DNA from: Pedosphaera parvula Ellin514
GTDB lineage: Bacteria; Verrucomicrobiota; Verrucomicrobiia; Limisphaerales; Pedosphaeraceae
NCBI RefSeq assembly: GCF_000172555.1
Contig: NZ_ABOX02000050.1
Coordinates: 1-56,856 of the forward strand
Direction of reading: 5' to 3'
DNA length: 56,856 bases
In this document: one piece after another, positions 50,604-56,006 of the stretch
Layout of the letters: each line of letters starts with the position of its first letter
How positions within the stretch are numbered: the first letter of the stretch is position 1
Position numbers and translations under genes: made by a program
The notes under the pieces: model-generated
Databases searched by the model: none
What the model saw: the letters and a program-made list of their open reading frames with translations, nothing else
Told to the model about the DNA's origin: nothing

Positions 50604-52013
50604 TTACCCCTTCAAAATTTTCTTCCACCGCCCCAACTGCCTCGCCACTTCCTTCGTCCCCGGCGCGCCAATCAAATTCCGCTGCGCCATCGCCTTCTTC
50701 AAATCAAACACCCCCAGCGCATCATTCCCAAACGTCTTGTCCAAGGCCTTCAACTGCTCCAGCGTCAATTGATTCAACGCCTTTCCTTCCTTCTCCGCCA
50801 AGGCCACAACCGCTCCCACGACATGATGCGCCTGCCGGAAAGGTATTCCCTTCCGCACCAGATAATCCGCCAAATCCGTCGCCAACAACGCCGGGTCACT
50901 CGCCGCCGCCGCGCAATTCTTCGTATTAACGCTCGTGTTCTCCAACATCGCCCCCATCAATCGCACGCACCCACGTATCGTCACCGCCGTATCGAACAAC
51001 CGCTCCTTGTCCTCCTGCAAATCGCGATTATACGTCATCGGCAATCCCTTCAATAACGTCAGCAACGCCATCAAATTCCCCACCACGCGACCCGTCTTGC
51101 CCCGCGTCAATTCCGCCACGTCCGGATTCTTCTTCTGCGGCATCAGCGACGACCCTGTCGTATACGCATCCGCAATCTTGATGAAATTAAACTCCGAACT
51201 CGCCCACAAAATCACATCCTCCGCCAACCGCGACAAATGCACTGCCGCCAGCGCCGCCACACTGCAAAATTCAATCGCAAAATCCCGGTCGCTCACCCCG
51301 TCCATCGAATTCTGCGTCACCACCGGTTTCCCCTTCGCATCCACAAAGCCCAGTTGCTCCGCCACAAATTCCCGGTCCAACGGCAGCGTCGACCCCGCAA
51401 TCGCCCCGCTTCCCAGCGGACACACATTCACCCGCTGAAACGCATCCGTCAGCCGTTGATGATCCCGCTCCACCATCTCAACATACGCCAACAAATGATG
51501 CGCGAAATACACCGGCTGGGCCCGTTGCAAATGCGTGTAACCCGGAATCACCACCTCCGCATTCTTATCTGCCAATCCAACCAGTGCCCCTTGCAACCCG
51601 CGCAACTCCCCCGCCAGCTCCACAATCTCATCCCGCAACCACAACCGCATATCCAGCGCCACCTGGTCATTCCGCGACCGCGCCGTATGCAGCTTCGCCC
51701 CTGTCGGCACCCGCTTCGTCAGCTCGGCCTCGATGTTCATGTGCACATCCTCCAGCTCCGGCTTCCACTCGAACTTCCCGTCGTGAATCTCCTGCCCGAT
51801 CTCCTCCAAACTCTTCGTGATCGCCTGCAGCTCCGCCTTCGTCAGCACCCCGATCTTCTGCAACATCGTCGCGTGCGCAATCGATCCCATGATGTCATGA
51901 CGCCACAAACGCCAATCGAACGAAATCGATTCCGTAAACTCCGCCACGTCCGCACCCGGACCACTGGCAAACCTGCCACTCCGCGAAACTGGAGAACTTT
52001 TTTTCATGCTCAT
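50604..52013 (-). CDS. argH: argininosuccinate lyase
   Basis: A 469-residue fumarase/aspartase-superfamily enzyme that splits argininosuccinate into arginine and fumarate. HTARSRNDQVALDMRLWLRDE, GYTHLQRAQPVYFAHHLLAY and the superfamily signature GSSLMPQKKNPD are intact, with the catalytic Ser in the GSSLMPQ loop. The first residues (KKSSPVSRSGRFASGPGADVAEFTESISFDWRL, read in part) are typical. It probably starts the pair with the prenyl synthase gene. No other arg gene lies in the window. Confidence 0.95.
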   Translation of the reverse strand: MSMKKSSPVSRSGRFASGPGADVAEFTESISFDWRLWRHDIMGSIAHATMLQKIGVLTKAELQAITKSLEEIGQEIHDGKFEWKPELEDVHMNIEAELTKRVPTGAKLHTARSRNDQVALDMRLWLRDEIVELAGELRGLQGALVGLADKNAEVVIPGYTHLQRAQPVYFAHHLLAYVEMVERDHQRLTDAFQRVNVCPLGSGAIAGSTLPLDREFVAEQLGFVDAKGKPVVTQNSMDGVSDRDFAIEFCSVAALAAVHLSRLAEDVILWASSEFNFIKIADAYTTGSSLMPQKKNPDVAELTRGKTGRVVGNLMALLTLLKGLPMTYNRDLQEDKERLFDTAVTIRGCVRLMGAMLENTSVNTKNCAAAASDPALLATDLADYLVRKGIPFRQAHHVVGAVVALAEKEGKALNQLTLEQLKALDKTFGNDALGVFDLKKAMAQRNLIGAPGTKEVARQLGRWKKILKG

Positions 52014-52376
52014 TAATTAATCCGCAAAATCTGCGTCCAACCCCTCCAAAAGTCACGCGGGAAACGTTTGCCGCTTTCCTAATCCTGCTCATAATCGCGA
52101 TCCTAATCTGCCTCGTTTGCCGTTGCCCCTGCGTCGCCCCATCCTCATCCTTCACTCCCATGTGTGTTCTATGTCCCTTTTTTCTCGCCATTTCTTCGCT
52201 TTGCGGCTTCGTGGTCCCAATTCGCGTTCTTTCGCGTAATTCGCGGACAAAAATTGAGGGCTGGCTACTAGGGATTCAACCCATGGCAACCGGAGGGCAA
52301 TTATGATTCTTTAGGCGAACAAGGCGGTAGCGCTGAAGAATGCGTTTATGATTTTGGCAACCCATCCAGGACCTCC
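52014..52376. other. intergenic region with degenerate repeats
   Basis: Between argH and the FkbH-like gene. It contains repeated ATCTGCG, AATCGCGATCC and TTCGCG words (around 52024-52250) like those near 200-240 and 3661-3740. A GGAGGG ribosome-like site precedes ATG ATT CTT TAG (52303-52314), a four-codon frame of unclear meaning. The FkbH-like frame is open back to 52272, with a TAG at 52269. No gene is called. Confidence 0.5.
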
Positions 52377-54569
52377 ATGCTCAGAAGCCGGATCGGACTT
52401 GTCCACCGCCCAACCACGTCGCCGCCAACTCCCGGAGCGTTCAGACTGGCAACGGCACCCAAGCCCTTAACCATTATGCTCCGGCCACCTCCCCCCCAAA
52501 CGCATTTGGATGCCGCCGCCCGGCAGTCAGGACAATTCATACTCGCGATTGCCGCCACCTTCACTGCGGAACCGCTTGAGGAAACCTTCCAATTCTGGAT
52601 GCACGAGTTGGAACTGGCTGGGGAGGTTCGTTTCGCGCCGTACAATCAAGTCTTTCAACAACTACTCGATCCCGCCAGCCTGCTCGCAACCAATCAGTGC
52701 GGACTCAATATCCTGTTGCTCCGTTGGGAAGATCTGGGCAACTCCTCCGCCGGCCATGAGCGCGAACGGGCCGCGCGCGAATTGTTGCTGATTTTAAAGA
52801 CCGCCATTTCTCGTGGCACCGTTCCCTGGCTGGCTTGCCTGTGTCCAGCATCAAACTCAGCCCTGGCCAACCCTTCCCTCGCAGAAACAATAATTTCTCT
52901 GGATAAACTTTTTACCGCCGAACTCGTCGGCTTGAAAAACATTCACCTCGTCACACCGGCGGACCTGCTCAACCTTTATCCTGTGCCTCAATACGATGAT
53001 CCGCAAGCCAGCCGTCTCGGCCAGCTGCCCTATACACCTGCCTGCTACTCCGCCCTCGCCACCCTCATCATCCGCAAAACGCACGCGCTGACCCGACGGC
53101 CAAAAAAGGTCATCGCCCTGGATTGTGACCAAACGCTCTGGGGCGGAATCTGCGGTGAAGATGGCCCTCTGGGCGTGGAATTGACTCCCTCCCATCTGGC
53201 TCTGCAAAAATTTATGCGGGCGCAACATGACGCGGGAATGCTCCTTTGCCTCTGTAGCAAAAACAATGATGCCGAGGTCGCCGAAGTCTTCCGCTCCCGC
53301 CCCGAAATGCAGTTGCGACCGGAACACTTCGCCGCCCGGCGCGTCAACTGGCAAGCCAAGTCCGCGAACCTTCATTCACTCGCCCACGAATTGAACCTCG
53401 GGCTCGATAGCTTCGTGCTGCTGGATGACAATCCGCTCGAATGCGCCGAAGTCGAGGCCCATTGTCCTGAAACTCTCGCTCTCCAACTCCCGGAAGACCT
53501 GGCCGAGTGGCCGCGATTCCTGCAACACATCTGGGCGCTCGACCATTGGAATGTCACCAGCGAAGACCGGGGGCGCAACGCCATGTACCAGCAAAACCGC
53601 CTCCGCGAACAATCCCAAGCCGCCGCTCCCACCTTGGCCGATTTTCTGGACGGCTTGAAACTTCAGATTCACATTGAACCCGCCCGACCGGAACAATTCT
53701 CACGCGTATCCCAATTGACGCACCGCACCAACCAGTTCAACTGCACTACCCAACGCCGCTCCGAAGAGGAAATTCTCAAGCTCCACCGGGAAAACCCCGC
53801 ACACATTCTGACAGTGACCGTCCGTGACCGTTTCGGAGATTACGGCCTGACCGGCGTTATAACCTACCAAACTTCCCACGACACCCTCACCGTGGATACA
53901 TTCCTGTTAAGCTGTCGCGTGCTCGGCAAAGGTGTGGAACACCGCATGTTGGCTTGTCTGGGACAAATCGCGCAAAAAATTGGCGTTCGCAATGTCGAAA
54001 TCCCCTTCCTGCCCACCGCAAGAAATCAACCCGCCTTCGACTTCCTGAACCGCATCAGCGCCACCGCCTGCCATGGCATCGGCGACAACTCTCCCTTCCG
54101 TTTCCCCACGGACCTTGCCGCCGCGGTCGTCCATAACCCCGAAGTCCCGGAATCTCCGCGCACATCCGCTGCCCTACCGGCGCCTGCATCCACCGCAATC
54201 CTCATGGATGGTGATCCACCCGCGTTGCGACCAGCACGTTACCGGTGGATCATCCGTCACGCCCGTGACCCGGAACAAATCCTAAAACTTGTCGAAGCGC
54301 GGCATCCCGCGCCGATCCCCTCTCCTGCCAGCGCGCACATCCCGCCCGCAACCGAAACCCAACGTCAACTCTGCGACTTGTGGCAGCAAGTGCTCCGGTT
54401 GGAGCGCGTGAGCATCCGCGACGATTTTTTTGAACTCGGCGGCAACTCACAACTCGCCGTGCGGCTGTTGGCCCGCTGGGAAAAACTCACCGGTAAAAAG
54501 CTGCAATTCGTAACCATCTTTAAATCTCCCACCATCGAGCAACTCGCCCGGGTAGCCGACGAAACTTAA
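52377..54569 (+). CDS. FkbH-like HAD-IIIC protein with C-terminal carrier domain
   Basis: A 730-residue protein. The ATG at 52377 follows CAGGACCTCC; an in-frame ATG at 52476 would give 697 residues and begins nearer the family's usual N-terminus, so the start is uncertain. Residues about 55-235 form the SGNH-like N-terminal part (ATFTAEPLEE, FAPYNQVFQQLLDP). The HAD motif VIALDCDQTLWGG has Asp249 and Asp251. A GNAT-like acyltransferase-type region follows (TNQFNCTTQR, VRDRFGDYGLTGV, LSCRVLGKGVEHRML). The last 80 residues are a peptidyl/acyl carrier domain with the phosphopantetheine Ser in DDFFELGGNSQLAVRLL. FkbH enzymes load glyceryl units from 1,3-bisphosphoglycerate onto such carriers. 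No PKS or NRPS genes are nearby. Confidence 0.85.
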   Translation: MLRSRIGLVHRPTTSPPTPGAFRLATAPKPLTIMLRPPPPQTHLDAAARQSGQFILAIAATFTAEPLEETFQFWMHELELAGEVRFAPYNQVFQQLLDPASLLATNQCGLNILLLRWEDLGNSSAGHERERAARELLLILKTAISRGTVPWLACLCPASNSALANPSLAETIISLDKLFTAELVGLKNIHLVTPADLLNLYPVPQYDDPQASRLGQLPYTPACYSALATLIIRKTHALTRRPKKVIALDCDQTLWGGICGEDGPLGVELTPSHLALQKFMRAQHDAGMLLCLCSKNNDAEVAEVFRSRPEMQLRPEHFAARRVNWQAKSANLHSLAHELNLGLDSFVLLDDNPLECAEVEAHCPETLALQLPEDLAEWPRFLQHIWALDHWNVTSEDRGRNAMYQQNRLREQSQAAAPTLADFLDGLKLQIHIEPARPEQFSRVSQLTHRTNQFNCTTQRRSEEEILKLHRENPAHILTVTVRDRFGDYGLTGVITYQTSHDTLTVDTFLLSCRVLGKGVEHRMLACLGQIAQKIGVRNVEIPFLPTARNQPAFDFLNRISATACHGIGDNSPFRFPTDLAAAVVHNPEVPESPRTSAALPAPASTAILMDGDPPALRPARYRWIIRHARDPEQILKLVEARHPAPIPSPASAHIPPATETQRQLCDLWQQVLRLERVSIRDDFFELGGNSQLAVRLLARWEKLTGKKLQFVTIFKSPTIEQLARVADET

Positions 54570-54588
54570 AACCTATTCCCTGTTTTAC

Positions 54589-54723
54589 GCGAGCCAACGA
54601 GACTCTACTTTCCCTTTACAACCAGTCCTCCAGAGCCTTCCCACGAACGCGGCCACAATGCCGACCCAACCCCCGACCATCCTTAATCCCGTAGCAGACG
54701 AGGCAACGAGACTCATACTTCCC
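54589..54723. repeat. imperfect direct repeat pair
   Basis: CGAGCCAACGAGACTCTACT (from 54590) and CGAGGCAACGAGACTCATAC (from 54699) are near-identical copies about 110 bases apart, each followed by TTCCC. They flank a spacer with no credible gene between the FkbH-like gene and the TPR gene. They may be a member of a dispersed repeat class. Confidence 0.55.
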
Positions 54724-54769
54724 GACCACGATCAAAGAACGGACCAAGACCGCAAAACCACCCCTTGGT

Positions 54770-55839
54770 TCAGAATCCGAACGCGTCCACTTCCCTGTTC
54801 TTCTTCTGTCTACCGCGAATCTTCGCATAAATGTAATAAGCAATAACCAGCAGCCCCAAGCCAATGATTGCGTAATATGGATAGTCTTGCTTCCGCGATT
54901 CCCTGATAAACTCATGCAGTTCATTTGCATGCCTGGTTAGTATCGCCGCCTGCGGCGATCCCAGTGCTATTGCCCTCTCATACGCCGAAGCCGCTAGGTG
55001 ACGATCCCCTTTCCGCATGCATAAAATCCCAAGCATCTGGAAACACGCCGGCTCCTTGGGATTGAGAGTCGCCATGTAAATAACCCCCTCCTGCAACTTG
55101 AGATCACCGCCAGATTCCATTTCTTTCGATAATCAGGAGGCGAGTCAAATTCAGTTAGAAGAACGAGGATAGAGCCCAGACCATAGGCACGTCCGCCTTT
55201 TTTGACCACCTCCGCATACTCCTTTTCCAGCTTCATCATTTCCTGGCCATCTTTGTTGGGCTCCTCAAACACCCCCATGCCCGCCTGTGGACGCGGAAGT
55301 ACTGCCTCACTACTGTTGAAAAACGGCACCGTGAACTCATCCACATAAACATGCCTGGATTTATACGCGTCATCCCGCACCAAATATTGCAACAACGCCA
55401 GGTGATACTTCTCCAACCCAAAATGCGCATCCGGATTGATTTCCAAATCCCGCGCAATCTCCTTCTCCGCATCCGTATATCGGCCCATCAAATGATACGC
55501 CGTCCCCAGATTCGCATGAATCCCGTAATCATTCGCAAACCGGTTCGTCACCGATTCCAGCACCGACTCCTTCAACTCCCCCAGGTTCATGTGCGCCACC
55601 GCCAGATCATTCCACCACATCGGCTCGTTCTCACGACGGTTCGCCATCAACTTCTGAATCCGCTCCCGCATCACCTTCGGGTCCTCCGGCGCAGGCACTT
55701 CTCCCAAGACCACCTTCGCCAACTCCGGATGCCTCTTTTTTTCCTCGCTCAAGGTTGTCGAATCCCACTTGCAGGCTTGAACAATGGAAATGTCACCAGT
55801 CAGAATTGTGAGCAGGAGAATCAGCACCTTGGATTTCAT
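54770..55839 (-). pseudogene. TPR membrane protein, frameshifted
   Basis: One gene read in two frames. From the ATG at 55839 the product has a signal peptide (MKSKVLILLLTILTGDISIV...) and TPR helices (EPMWWNDLAVAHMNLGELKE, YGIHANLGTAYHLMGRYTDA). Near 55117-55128 (CGAAAGAAATGG) the frame goes wrong: the original frame gives an Arg-rich tail (SSCRRGLFTWRLSIPRSRR), while the other frame continues as GDLKLQEGVIYMATLNPKEP, another TPR, then a membrane helix (YYAIIGLGLLVIAYYIYAKI) and a basic tail to the stop at 54770. A missing A in the CGAAA run would restore one frame of about 356 residues. It may be a sequencing error or a real mutation. Confidence 0.78.
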
Positions 55840-56006
55840 AAATCGATTCTCATTATTCAAAAACTCTCAAGCAAAGTCAAAAGCACACCGGAAGACCTGC
55901 AGCTTGTCTCTGGTCATTGTTTGCTAATAATGCCCAATCGGCGCTTGCCCCTTCGGCTCCATCCCGATGGCTGCATGATTGGTCTGCCCCGGAACCAGCG
56001 TGACAG

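Follow-up and report, generated by a model that had tools for sequence, protein, structure and literature searches.

A detached FkbH-carrier protein of NRPS lineage in Pedosphaera parvula Ellin514 and its probable service to a distant assembly line

Here we report that a lone gene of Pedosphaera parvula Ellin514, lying on a 56,856-nt stretch of DNA (hereafter the window), encodes a detached, probably glycerate-loading di-domain of the NRPS lineage, in which an FkbH region is fused to a peptidyl carrier domain (PCP). This protein most likely supplies, in trans, an NRPS line encoded on another contig of the same genome (the C2 line), a reading to which we give a probability of roughly 0.6. The domain make-up of the protein, its retained catalytic residues, its clade, its insertion as a single gene beside argH and the C2 cluster without FkbH are apparent from the sequences compared. 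If the reading holds, an NRPS line can rely on a distant building-block loader that is overlooked by cluster-bounded genome mining: predictions for the C2 line would omit glycerate, while FkbH would appear as an orphan gene.

In the FK520 and oxazolomycin (OzmB) systems, FkbH forms a glyceryl-S-carrier with a discrete ACP for polyketide extender or tetronate pathways. FkbH within NRPS modules is also already known. According to the accessible part of PMC8949500, it stands in there for adenylation (A) domains, loading and dephosphorylating 1,3-bisphosphoglycerate to give a glyceryl unit on the carrier; for the vioprolide enzyme, activation of 3-phosphoglycerate is cited in the accessible part of PMC10099666. 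In the literature searched, some of it accessible in part and most subscription journals lying outside it, we found no description of a stand-alone FkbH-PCP apart from its line, and nothing joining FkbH, nonribosomal and Verrucomicrobi.

Domain architecture of the FkbH-PCP protein

The gene encodes 730 aa and is open throughout, with 0 internal stops. The initial annotation had described a complete SGNH/HAD-IIIC/GNAT-like FkbH with a carrier domain bearing a phosphopantetheine Ser, and this description is borne out by family scores, by Ser691 and by fold matches (Table 1). The protein belongs to FkbH by NCBIfam TIGR01686 (290.7 bits on aa 243-562; cut-off 146.65) and to the PP-binding carriers by Pfam PF00550 (45.5 bits on aa 664-725), while HAD-IIIC (TIGR01681) scores 57.6 bits. 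Pfam FkbH_N (PF21211) had no match to it at E 0.001; its match to another FkbH protein of the genome, on contig C82, fell just under the cut-off. In an alignment of 14 FkbH proteins, D249, D251, S294, K328, D350, D351, C513 and E521 are invariant; the first six belong to the HAD motifs, and C513 is the transfer Cys.

Table 1 Features of the FkbH-PCP gene and its surroundings in the window
Feature	Position	Strand	Evidence
argH (argininosuccinate lyase), left neighbour, conserved housekeeping locus	50604..52013	-	TIGR00838 612 bits; argH and neighbours in five relatives
Insertion interval: no DNA match between argH and TPR gene of G006	52066..54949	.	blastn flanks, tblastn of TPR proteins
FkbH-PCP gene, stand-alone glycerate-loading di-domain (predicted)	52377..54569	+	TIGR01686 290.7 bits, PF00550 45.5 bits, 60% to G004 cluster gene
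N-terminal SGNH-like domain, aa 50-235	52524..53081	+	own profile; fold match to 3slr
HAD-IIIC phosphatase-like domain, aa 240-391	53094..53549	+	TIGR01681; MDP-1 and 3slr fold matches; D249, D251, S294, K328, D350, D351 invariant
GNAT-like acyl-transfer domain with Cys513, aa 429-579	53661..54113	+	Ard1/Naa50 fold match, Z up to 14.9; C513 invariant 14/14
NRPS-type peptidyl carrier domain, aa 662-728	54360..54560	+	PF00550, own profile, PCP fold matches
Phosphopantetheine Ser691 of carrier	54447-54449	+	LGGNS motif
TPR-repeat gene, right neighbour, frame broken near 55009-55105	54770..55860	-	ORF list; G006/G007 protein comparison

The AlphaFold model of the protein (mean pLDDT 82.1) matched 3slr, which is BF1531 of Bacteroides fragilis, over aa 47-393 (Z 30.9, 22% identity over 342 residues). 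An SGNH-like domain makes up the N-terminal part of 3slr. The structure covers just the N-terminal portion of BF1531, and this solved portion contains no carrier domain, whereas the window protein carries a PCP. Fold searches matched aa 240-391 to HAD proteins, aa 429-579 to GNAT proteins and aa ~651-730 to NRPS PCPs. The model shows no structure for residues 1-50, so translation may in fact begin downstream of position 52377.

Unlike the FK520/OzmB type, which has a separate ACP and a PKS line, the window protein thus carries a fused NRPS-type carrier. Neither Pfam nor our own profiles detected a condensation (C) domain in its ORF, which is therefore not a C-FkbH-T module. Such modules in the vioprolide, cystomanamide and corramycin systems likewise let FkbH feed an NRPS carrier with a glycerate unit (accessible parts of PMC8949500 and PMC10099666). 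Compared with a vioprolide-type module, both the C domain ahead of FkbH and an NRPS cluster on the contig are absent; vioprolide and corramycin have FAAL-ACP-C-FkbH-T in one line, as far as PMC10099666 is accessible, whereas the window gene has no C domain and lies away from any cluster.

An apparent single-gene insertion next to argH

The window is the complete contig C50 of a 7.41 Mb genome in 102 contigs, and the FkbH-PCP gene ends 2.3 kb from the right contig end. The absence of PKS or NRPS genes from the window, as noted initially, holds: with profiles for C, A, KS-AT, TE, PCP and FkbH applied to ORFs of at least 100 aa after an overlap filter, the FkbH ORF was the sole match in the 56.9 kb contig. 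Pfam itself was applied to eight ORFs at the right end. Between the gene and the contig end, the opposite strand carries the TPR gene and an ORF whose carboxypeptidase-regulatory match is sub-threshold, and no glycosyltransferase or thioesterase was found by Pfam and NCBIfam among the direct neighbours.

In the relative G006, the TPR gene adjoins argH at a distance of 180 bases; the two genes keep the order and orientation they have in the window, with no FkbH between them. The window FkbH is thus a lone insert in an ordinary locus. By blastn, the window flanks 51502-52065 and 54950-55119 align to positions 2893-2334 and 2021-1851 of G006 contig C695, and the extra segment in the window, which holds FkbH, measures up to 2.9 kb. 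Protein matches (tblastn with TPR proteins) place the right end of the insertion interval nearer 54740-54790. Judged from these alignments, the locus looks like a single-gene insertion beside argH, with G006 keeping the empty site. argH and neighbouring genes are also kept in G007, G005, G003, G001 and G004, and no ORF of these argH loci matched the window FkbH (the G005 locus extends only ~0.2 kb beyond argH); in G007 and G003 the TPR gene is located elsewhere, away from argH.

The GC content of the window gene is 58.4% (0.649, 0.453 and 0.651 at the three codon positions), compared with 57.6% for argH, 50.3-56.3% for ten other window genes and 52.3% for the FkbH of contig C12. It resembles that of the G004 cluster described below (57.8-58.6%) and not that of the C2 cluster (48.6-52.2%), which argues against a recent move of the gene out of C2. 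The gene may instead have been acquired separately, or the insertion may be old. The GC mismatch alone does not deny a partnership with the C2 line.

Several minor features of this region were also recorded. The TPR gene is split over two overlapping frames near 55009-55105 relative to the G006 and G007 proteins, reflecting a frameshift or an assembly error. Flanking repeats of a mobile element were sought, and the longest inverted pair (19 nt, 79%; 52193-52211/54986-55004) was not counted as evidence. Flank DNA shared with the C2 cluster amounted to just two blastn matches of 24 and 14 bases (E 0.15). Four promoter-like sites were observed against 1.4 expected, one of them (52068-52095) upstream of the FkbH gene, and they were given no weight.

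The nearest relatives are parts of NRPS lines

The closest relative outside the genome is an FkbH-PCP protein of Centralia_MAG_180 (G004, contig C52), which is 60% identical over aa 41-726 and has the same SGNH-HAD-GNAT-PCP make-up, the C domain being absent in both; the G004 gene, however, lies inside its cluster and the window gene apart from any. Identity is 57% for the SGNH part, 67% for HAD-GNAT and 64% for the carrier. These identities fall within the 47-78% range of the C, A, PCP and TE domains of the cluster and above those of its dead KS (40.5%) and AT (43%). Among 8 genomes of the family, including the own genome, 7 match at E 0.001, some to the carrier only; at order level, 47/320 match at E 1e-40, some over the FkbH core only; and 13 of the 384 genomes drawn from the class match at E 1e-120, none above 52% except the window's own gene, with G004 and G101 evidently outside this draw.

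For the FkbH tree, 90 ORFs with SGNH-like, FkbH and carrier stretches were kept, one of which was lost by length, leaving 89; only fetched sequences were used, and L124, L053 (the same record as L144) and L120 (G019) were skipped by name. The window gene pairs first with its G004 counterpart (SH-aLRT 100) and then joins G101 (97), the three being nested in a 16-row verrucomicrobial NRPS clade (99). The end branches of the window copy and the in-cluster copy are 0.47 and 0.53, respectively; the window copy is not faster. C-FkbH-PCP occurs within large NRPS proteins in 10 proteins of a C-domain tree, FkbH taking the place of the A domain; in other settings of the order, FkbH-PCP precedes C-A (G189, G190) or stands without C or A in its ORF (G019, G278, G293). 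An FkbH fragment on G006 contig C683, 54% identical to the window gene over its part, did not enter the tree because it lacks a carrier; its 70% identity to G005 C127 places it with the fused C12 type described below.

A C2 cluster without FkbH

The G004 cluster (C52, 184130-201572) reads C-PCP, GNAT, C-A-PCP, FkbH-PCP, KS-AT-C-PCP (with the A core lost) and C-A-PCP-TE. Contig C2 of P. parvula carries, at 150937-135148, five genes in the same order, with identities of 53% (C-PCP), 45% (GNAT), 55% (C-A-PCP), 40% (KS-AT-C-PCP) and 55% (C-A-PCP-TE), and FkbH is absent. Where the G004 FkbH gene sits between the C-A-PCP and KS-AT-C-PCP genes, directly before the latter, C2 has 7 bases. By gene order and identity, the C2 line is the ortholog of the G004 cluster minus FkbH. 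In the C tree, from which C stretches of 380 residues or fewer were left out, the C2 domains pair with their G004 counterparts in 4/4 cases, three of the pairs at 100/100; the weakest pair, that of KS-AT-C, has a bootstrap of 99 and an SH-aLRT of 49, its grouping with a G101 C domain being 100/100. The 10 C domains that precede FkbH form one clade in this tree and those of C2 and C52 fall outside it; a dedicated pre-FkbH C domain in these two lines was thus not recovered there.

The cluster GNAT was found in 3/320 order genomes at E 1e-20 (G000, G004 and G101). These three genomes, two of them of one family, are also the members of the window FkbH subclade, all of which carry the GNAT. In G101, the GNAT gene adjoins a C-A-C-PCP gene, and an FkbH module with its own C domain and TE lies on a different contig. 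The starts of G101 contigs C418 (L232) and C133 (L112) end at complementary points of one C domain, with no overlap, and the GNAT and FkbH parts may belong to one cluster.

The initial annotation had pointed to the role of FkbH in polyketide pathways; for this gene the link is to NRPS instead, as the active residues of the KS-AT are lost in both C2 and C52. The KS has lost its active Cys and first His (the Cys is kept in 7/7 other KS rows compared), and in the AT a Gly replaces the Ser that is kept in 7/7 others. In the same protein, HHxxxDG and the carrier Ser are intact in C2 and C52, and matches beyond the KS-AT part were found in G000, G004 and G088, where the match is at 37% and the protein has an A domain. 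HHxxxD is kept in 43/50 aligned C domains, including three of the C2 line (those of C-PCP, KS-AT-C and C-A-PCP-TE). In the C domain of C-A-PCP, the second His is Lys in C2 and Arg in G004, and that protein may therefore act as a loading A-PCP. The dead KS-AT with its A remnant stays in frame in two genera (C2 139349-144568, L058; G004 C52 192843-197333, L046).

As had been suggested as a check, the genome was searched for PKS and phosphopantetheinyl transferase genes: 12 matches to ketosynthase domains and two to phosphopantetheinyl transferases, the latter in ORFs of 270 and 268 aa, all lie on contigs other than C50. FkbH matches number four, on C82, C12, C50 and C48.

Proposed function and alternatives

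We infer the substrate, the loading, the hand-over in trans and the product as follows. By analogy with characterized FkbH systems, the FkbH part would take up and dephosphorylate 1,3-bisphosphoglycerate (or 3-phosphoglycerate) and place the glyceryl unit on the protein's own phosphopantetheinylated carrier. Since no C domain lies ahead of FkbH, the loaded carrier must meet the C domain of another protein, and it would hand the glyceryl in trans to the C2 line ([C-PCP][GNAT][C-A-PCP][dead KS-AT, C, A remnant, PCP][C-A-PCP-TE]). C2 is the proposed partner because two C-PCP units in it have no adenylation core and it lacks FkbH exactly at the G004 FkbH position; the phosphopantetheinyl transferase matches also count in favour. 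Against it we count the decay of the line in both genomes (KS/AT residues, A core, the His of C-A-PCP), the GC mismatch, the lack of dedicated pre-FkbH C domains in C2 and C52, the second FkbH-PCP in C12, and the narrow base of three genomes for the co-occurrence; neither a docking domain nor any further sign of interaction was identified. Stand-alone A-T proteins that complement A-less modules in trans are known: in the accessible part of PMC8949500, SyrB1 (syringomycin, acting on SyrE) and Alb04 (albicidin) are likewise loaders with their own carrier that complement an A-less or dead module, with SyrC acting as the shuttle for the residue in the syringomycin system. SyrB1 and Alb04, however, use adenylation and are cluster-encoded (PMC8949500, accessible part), whereas the window protein has FkbH chemistry and is encoded elsewhere. 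The C2/FkbH pair would allow a clean study of how a hydroxy acid passes in trans to a module that lacks an adenylation domain, and G004, which has this gene inside the cluster, provides a natural comparison.

The earlier proposal of a stand-alone glyceryl-carrier system with an unknown target stands in its first half, as FkbH with its own carrier is indeed encoded alone; the unknown target is probably wrong, given that the nearest relatives are NRPS parts and that an orthologous line without FkbH exists in the same genome. Among other readings, a stranded remnant without present function, left by cluster degeneration or chance transfer, is unlikely: the gene is a lone insert without a C domain and with GC unlike the C2 cluster, the adjoining TPR gene is frame-broken, and the partner line has a dead KS-AT, no longer has one A core and includes a C domain missing the catalytic His, but 730 codons are stop-free with the listed catalytic residues kept, and the branch is not accelerated relative to the in-cluster copy. 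We hold it equally doubtful that the di-domain is a general source of glyceryl-carrier for several lines, or that it supplies one other line, for example the C12 NRPS. Several NRPS/PKS lines are encoded in the genome, and C12 contains a C-FkbH-PCP module; that module, however, already includes FkbH-PCP, which could meet the genome's glyceryl needs in cis, and GNAT co-occurrence and the clade favour the C2 type of line.

Two further readings appear quite improbable. One assigns the gene to an NRPS/PKS cluster starting just past the right contig end, which would fit a window that is a whole contig and a gene end 2.3 kb from its edge. The ORFs up to that end are, however, the opposite-strand TPR gene and carboxypeptidase-regulatory candidate, the G006 TPR gene adjoins argH without FkbH, and the C2 line itself, which lies 135 kb or more within its own contig, is not the neighbour beyond the edge. 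The other is a glyceryl-carrier system that works independently of NRPS/PKS on a target of its own: among the best 80 of 194 relatives, 34 showed no NRPS/PKS ORF in the fetched locus, 20 of these 34 having >5 kb on both sides and several adjoining glycosyltransferases, with profiles that were built from Pfam-defined verrucomicrobial stretches and may miss domains in other phyla. In this count, the FkbH ORF was not found in the locus of L199 (counted as none) and L211 (counted as beside). By analogy with the acidobacterial order FkbH-PCP, glycosyltransferase, glycosyltransferase-thioesterase, a window gene freed from NRPS service might direct carrier-bound glycerate to glycosylation or to a glycan, outside NRPS/PKS, though this too is improbable. 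The acidobacterial and cyanobacterial stand-alone genes sit in other clades, while the window gene lies within the verrucomicrobial NRPS group, and its direct neighbours, argH and the TPR gene, include neither a glycosyltransferase nor a thioesterase.

Other FkbH genes

In Acidobacteria (L149, L157, L164, L175, L176, L188, also L202), FkbH-PCP is followed within ~25 nt by a GT4-like gene (confirmed by Pfam in L149, L157 and L175), an arrangement seen in 6/11 rows of the acidobacterial clade. A GT4-thioesterase fusion comes next in L149 and L157 (Pfam), with BLAST relatives in L164, L175 and L188, and the fetched flanks showed no NRPS/PKS ORF. At these loci, carrier-bound glycerate is perhaps glycosylated and released; on FkbH, glycosyltransferases and polysaccharide together, the accessible literature yielded only a pathway reconstruction. 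Stand-alone FkbH-PCP-thioesterase genes of ~1000 aa occur in cyanobacteria (L159, L162, L168, L183) and a planctomycete (L184), and here too the fetched loci showed no NRPS/PKS ORF; a GT2-like gene directly follows in four loci and precedes in L184 (Pfam: L159, L183).

Within P. parvula, the second FkbH-PCP forms part, in cis, of a 3228-aa NRPS on C12 that reads C-A-PCP-TE-A-PCP-C-FkbH-PCP. The order C-A-PCP-TE-A-PCP-C-FkbH-PCP-TE, with an internal TE and a C-FkbH-PCP module, is conserved in C12 (7557-19625), G004 C66, G005 C127 and G007 C297, the last TE being a separate ORF in C12. An ABC transporter gene (Pfam) lies behind the C12 NRPS, and the next ORFs in G004, G005 and G007 begin similarly. 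The FkbH protein of C48 (6024-8807, minus strand; L049) has 927 aa, and its N-terminal region matches the hexapeptide repeat at 27.6 bits (cut-off 27). One of its neighbours matches glycoside hydrolase families, and this protein possibly acts in glyceryl transfer outside NRPS.
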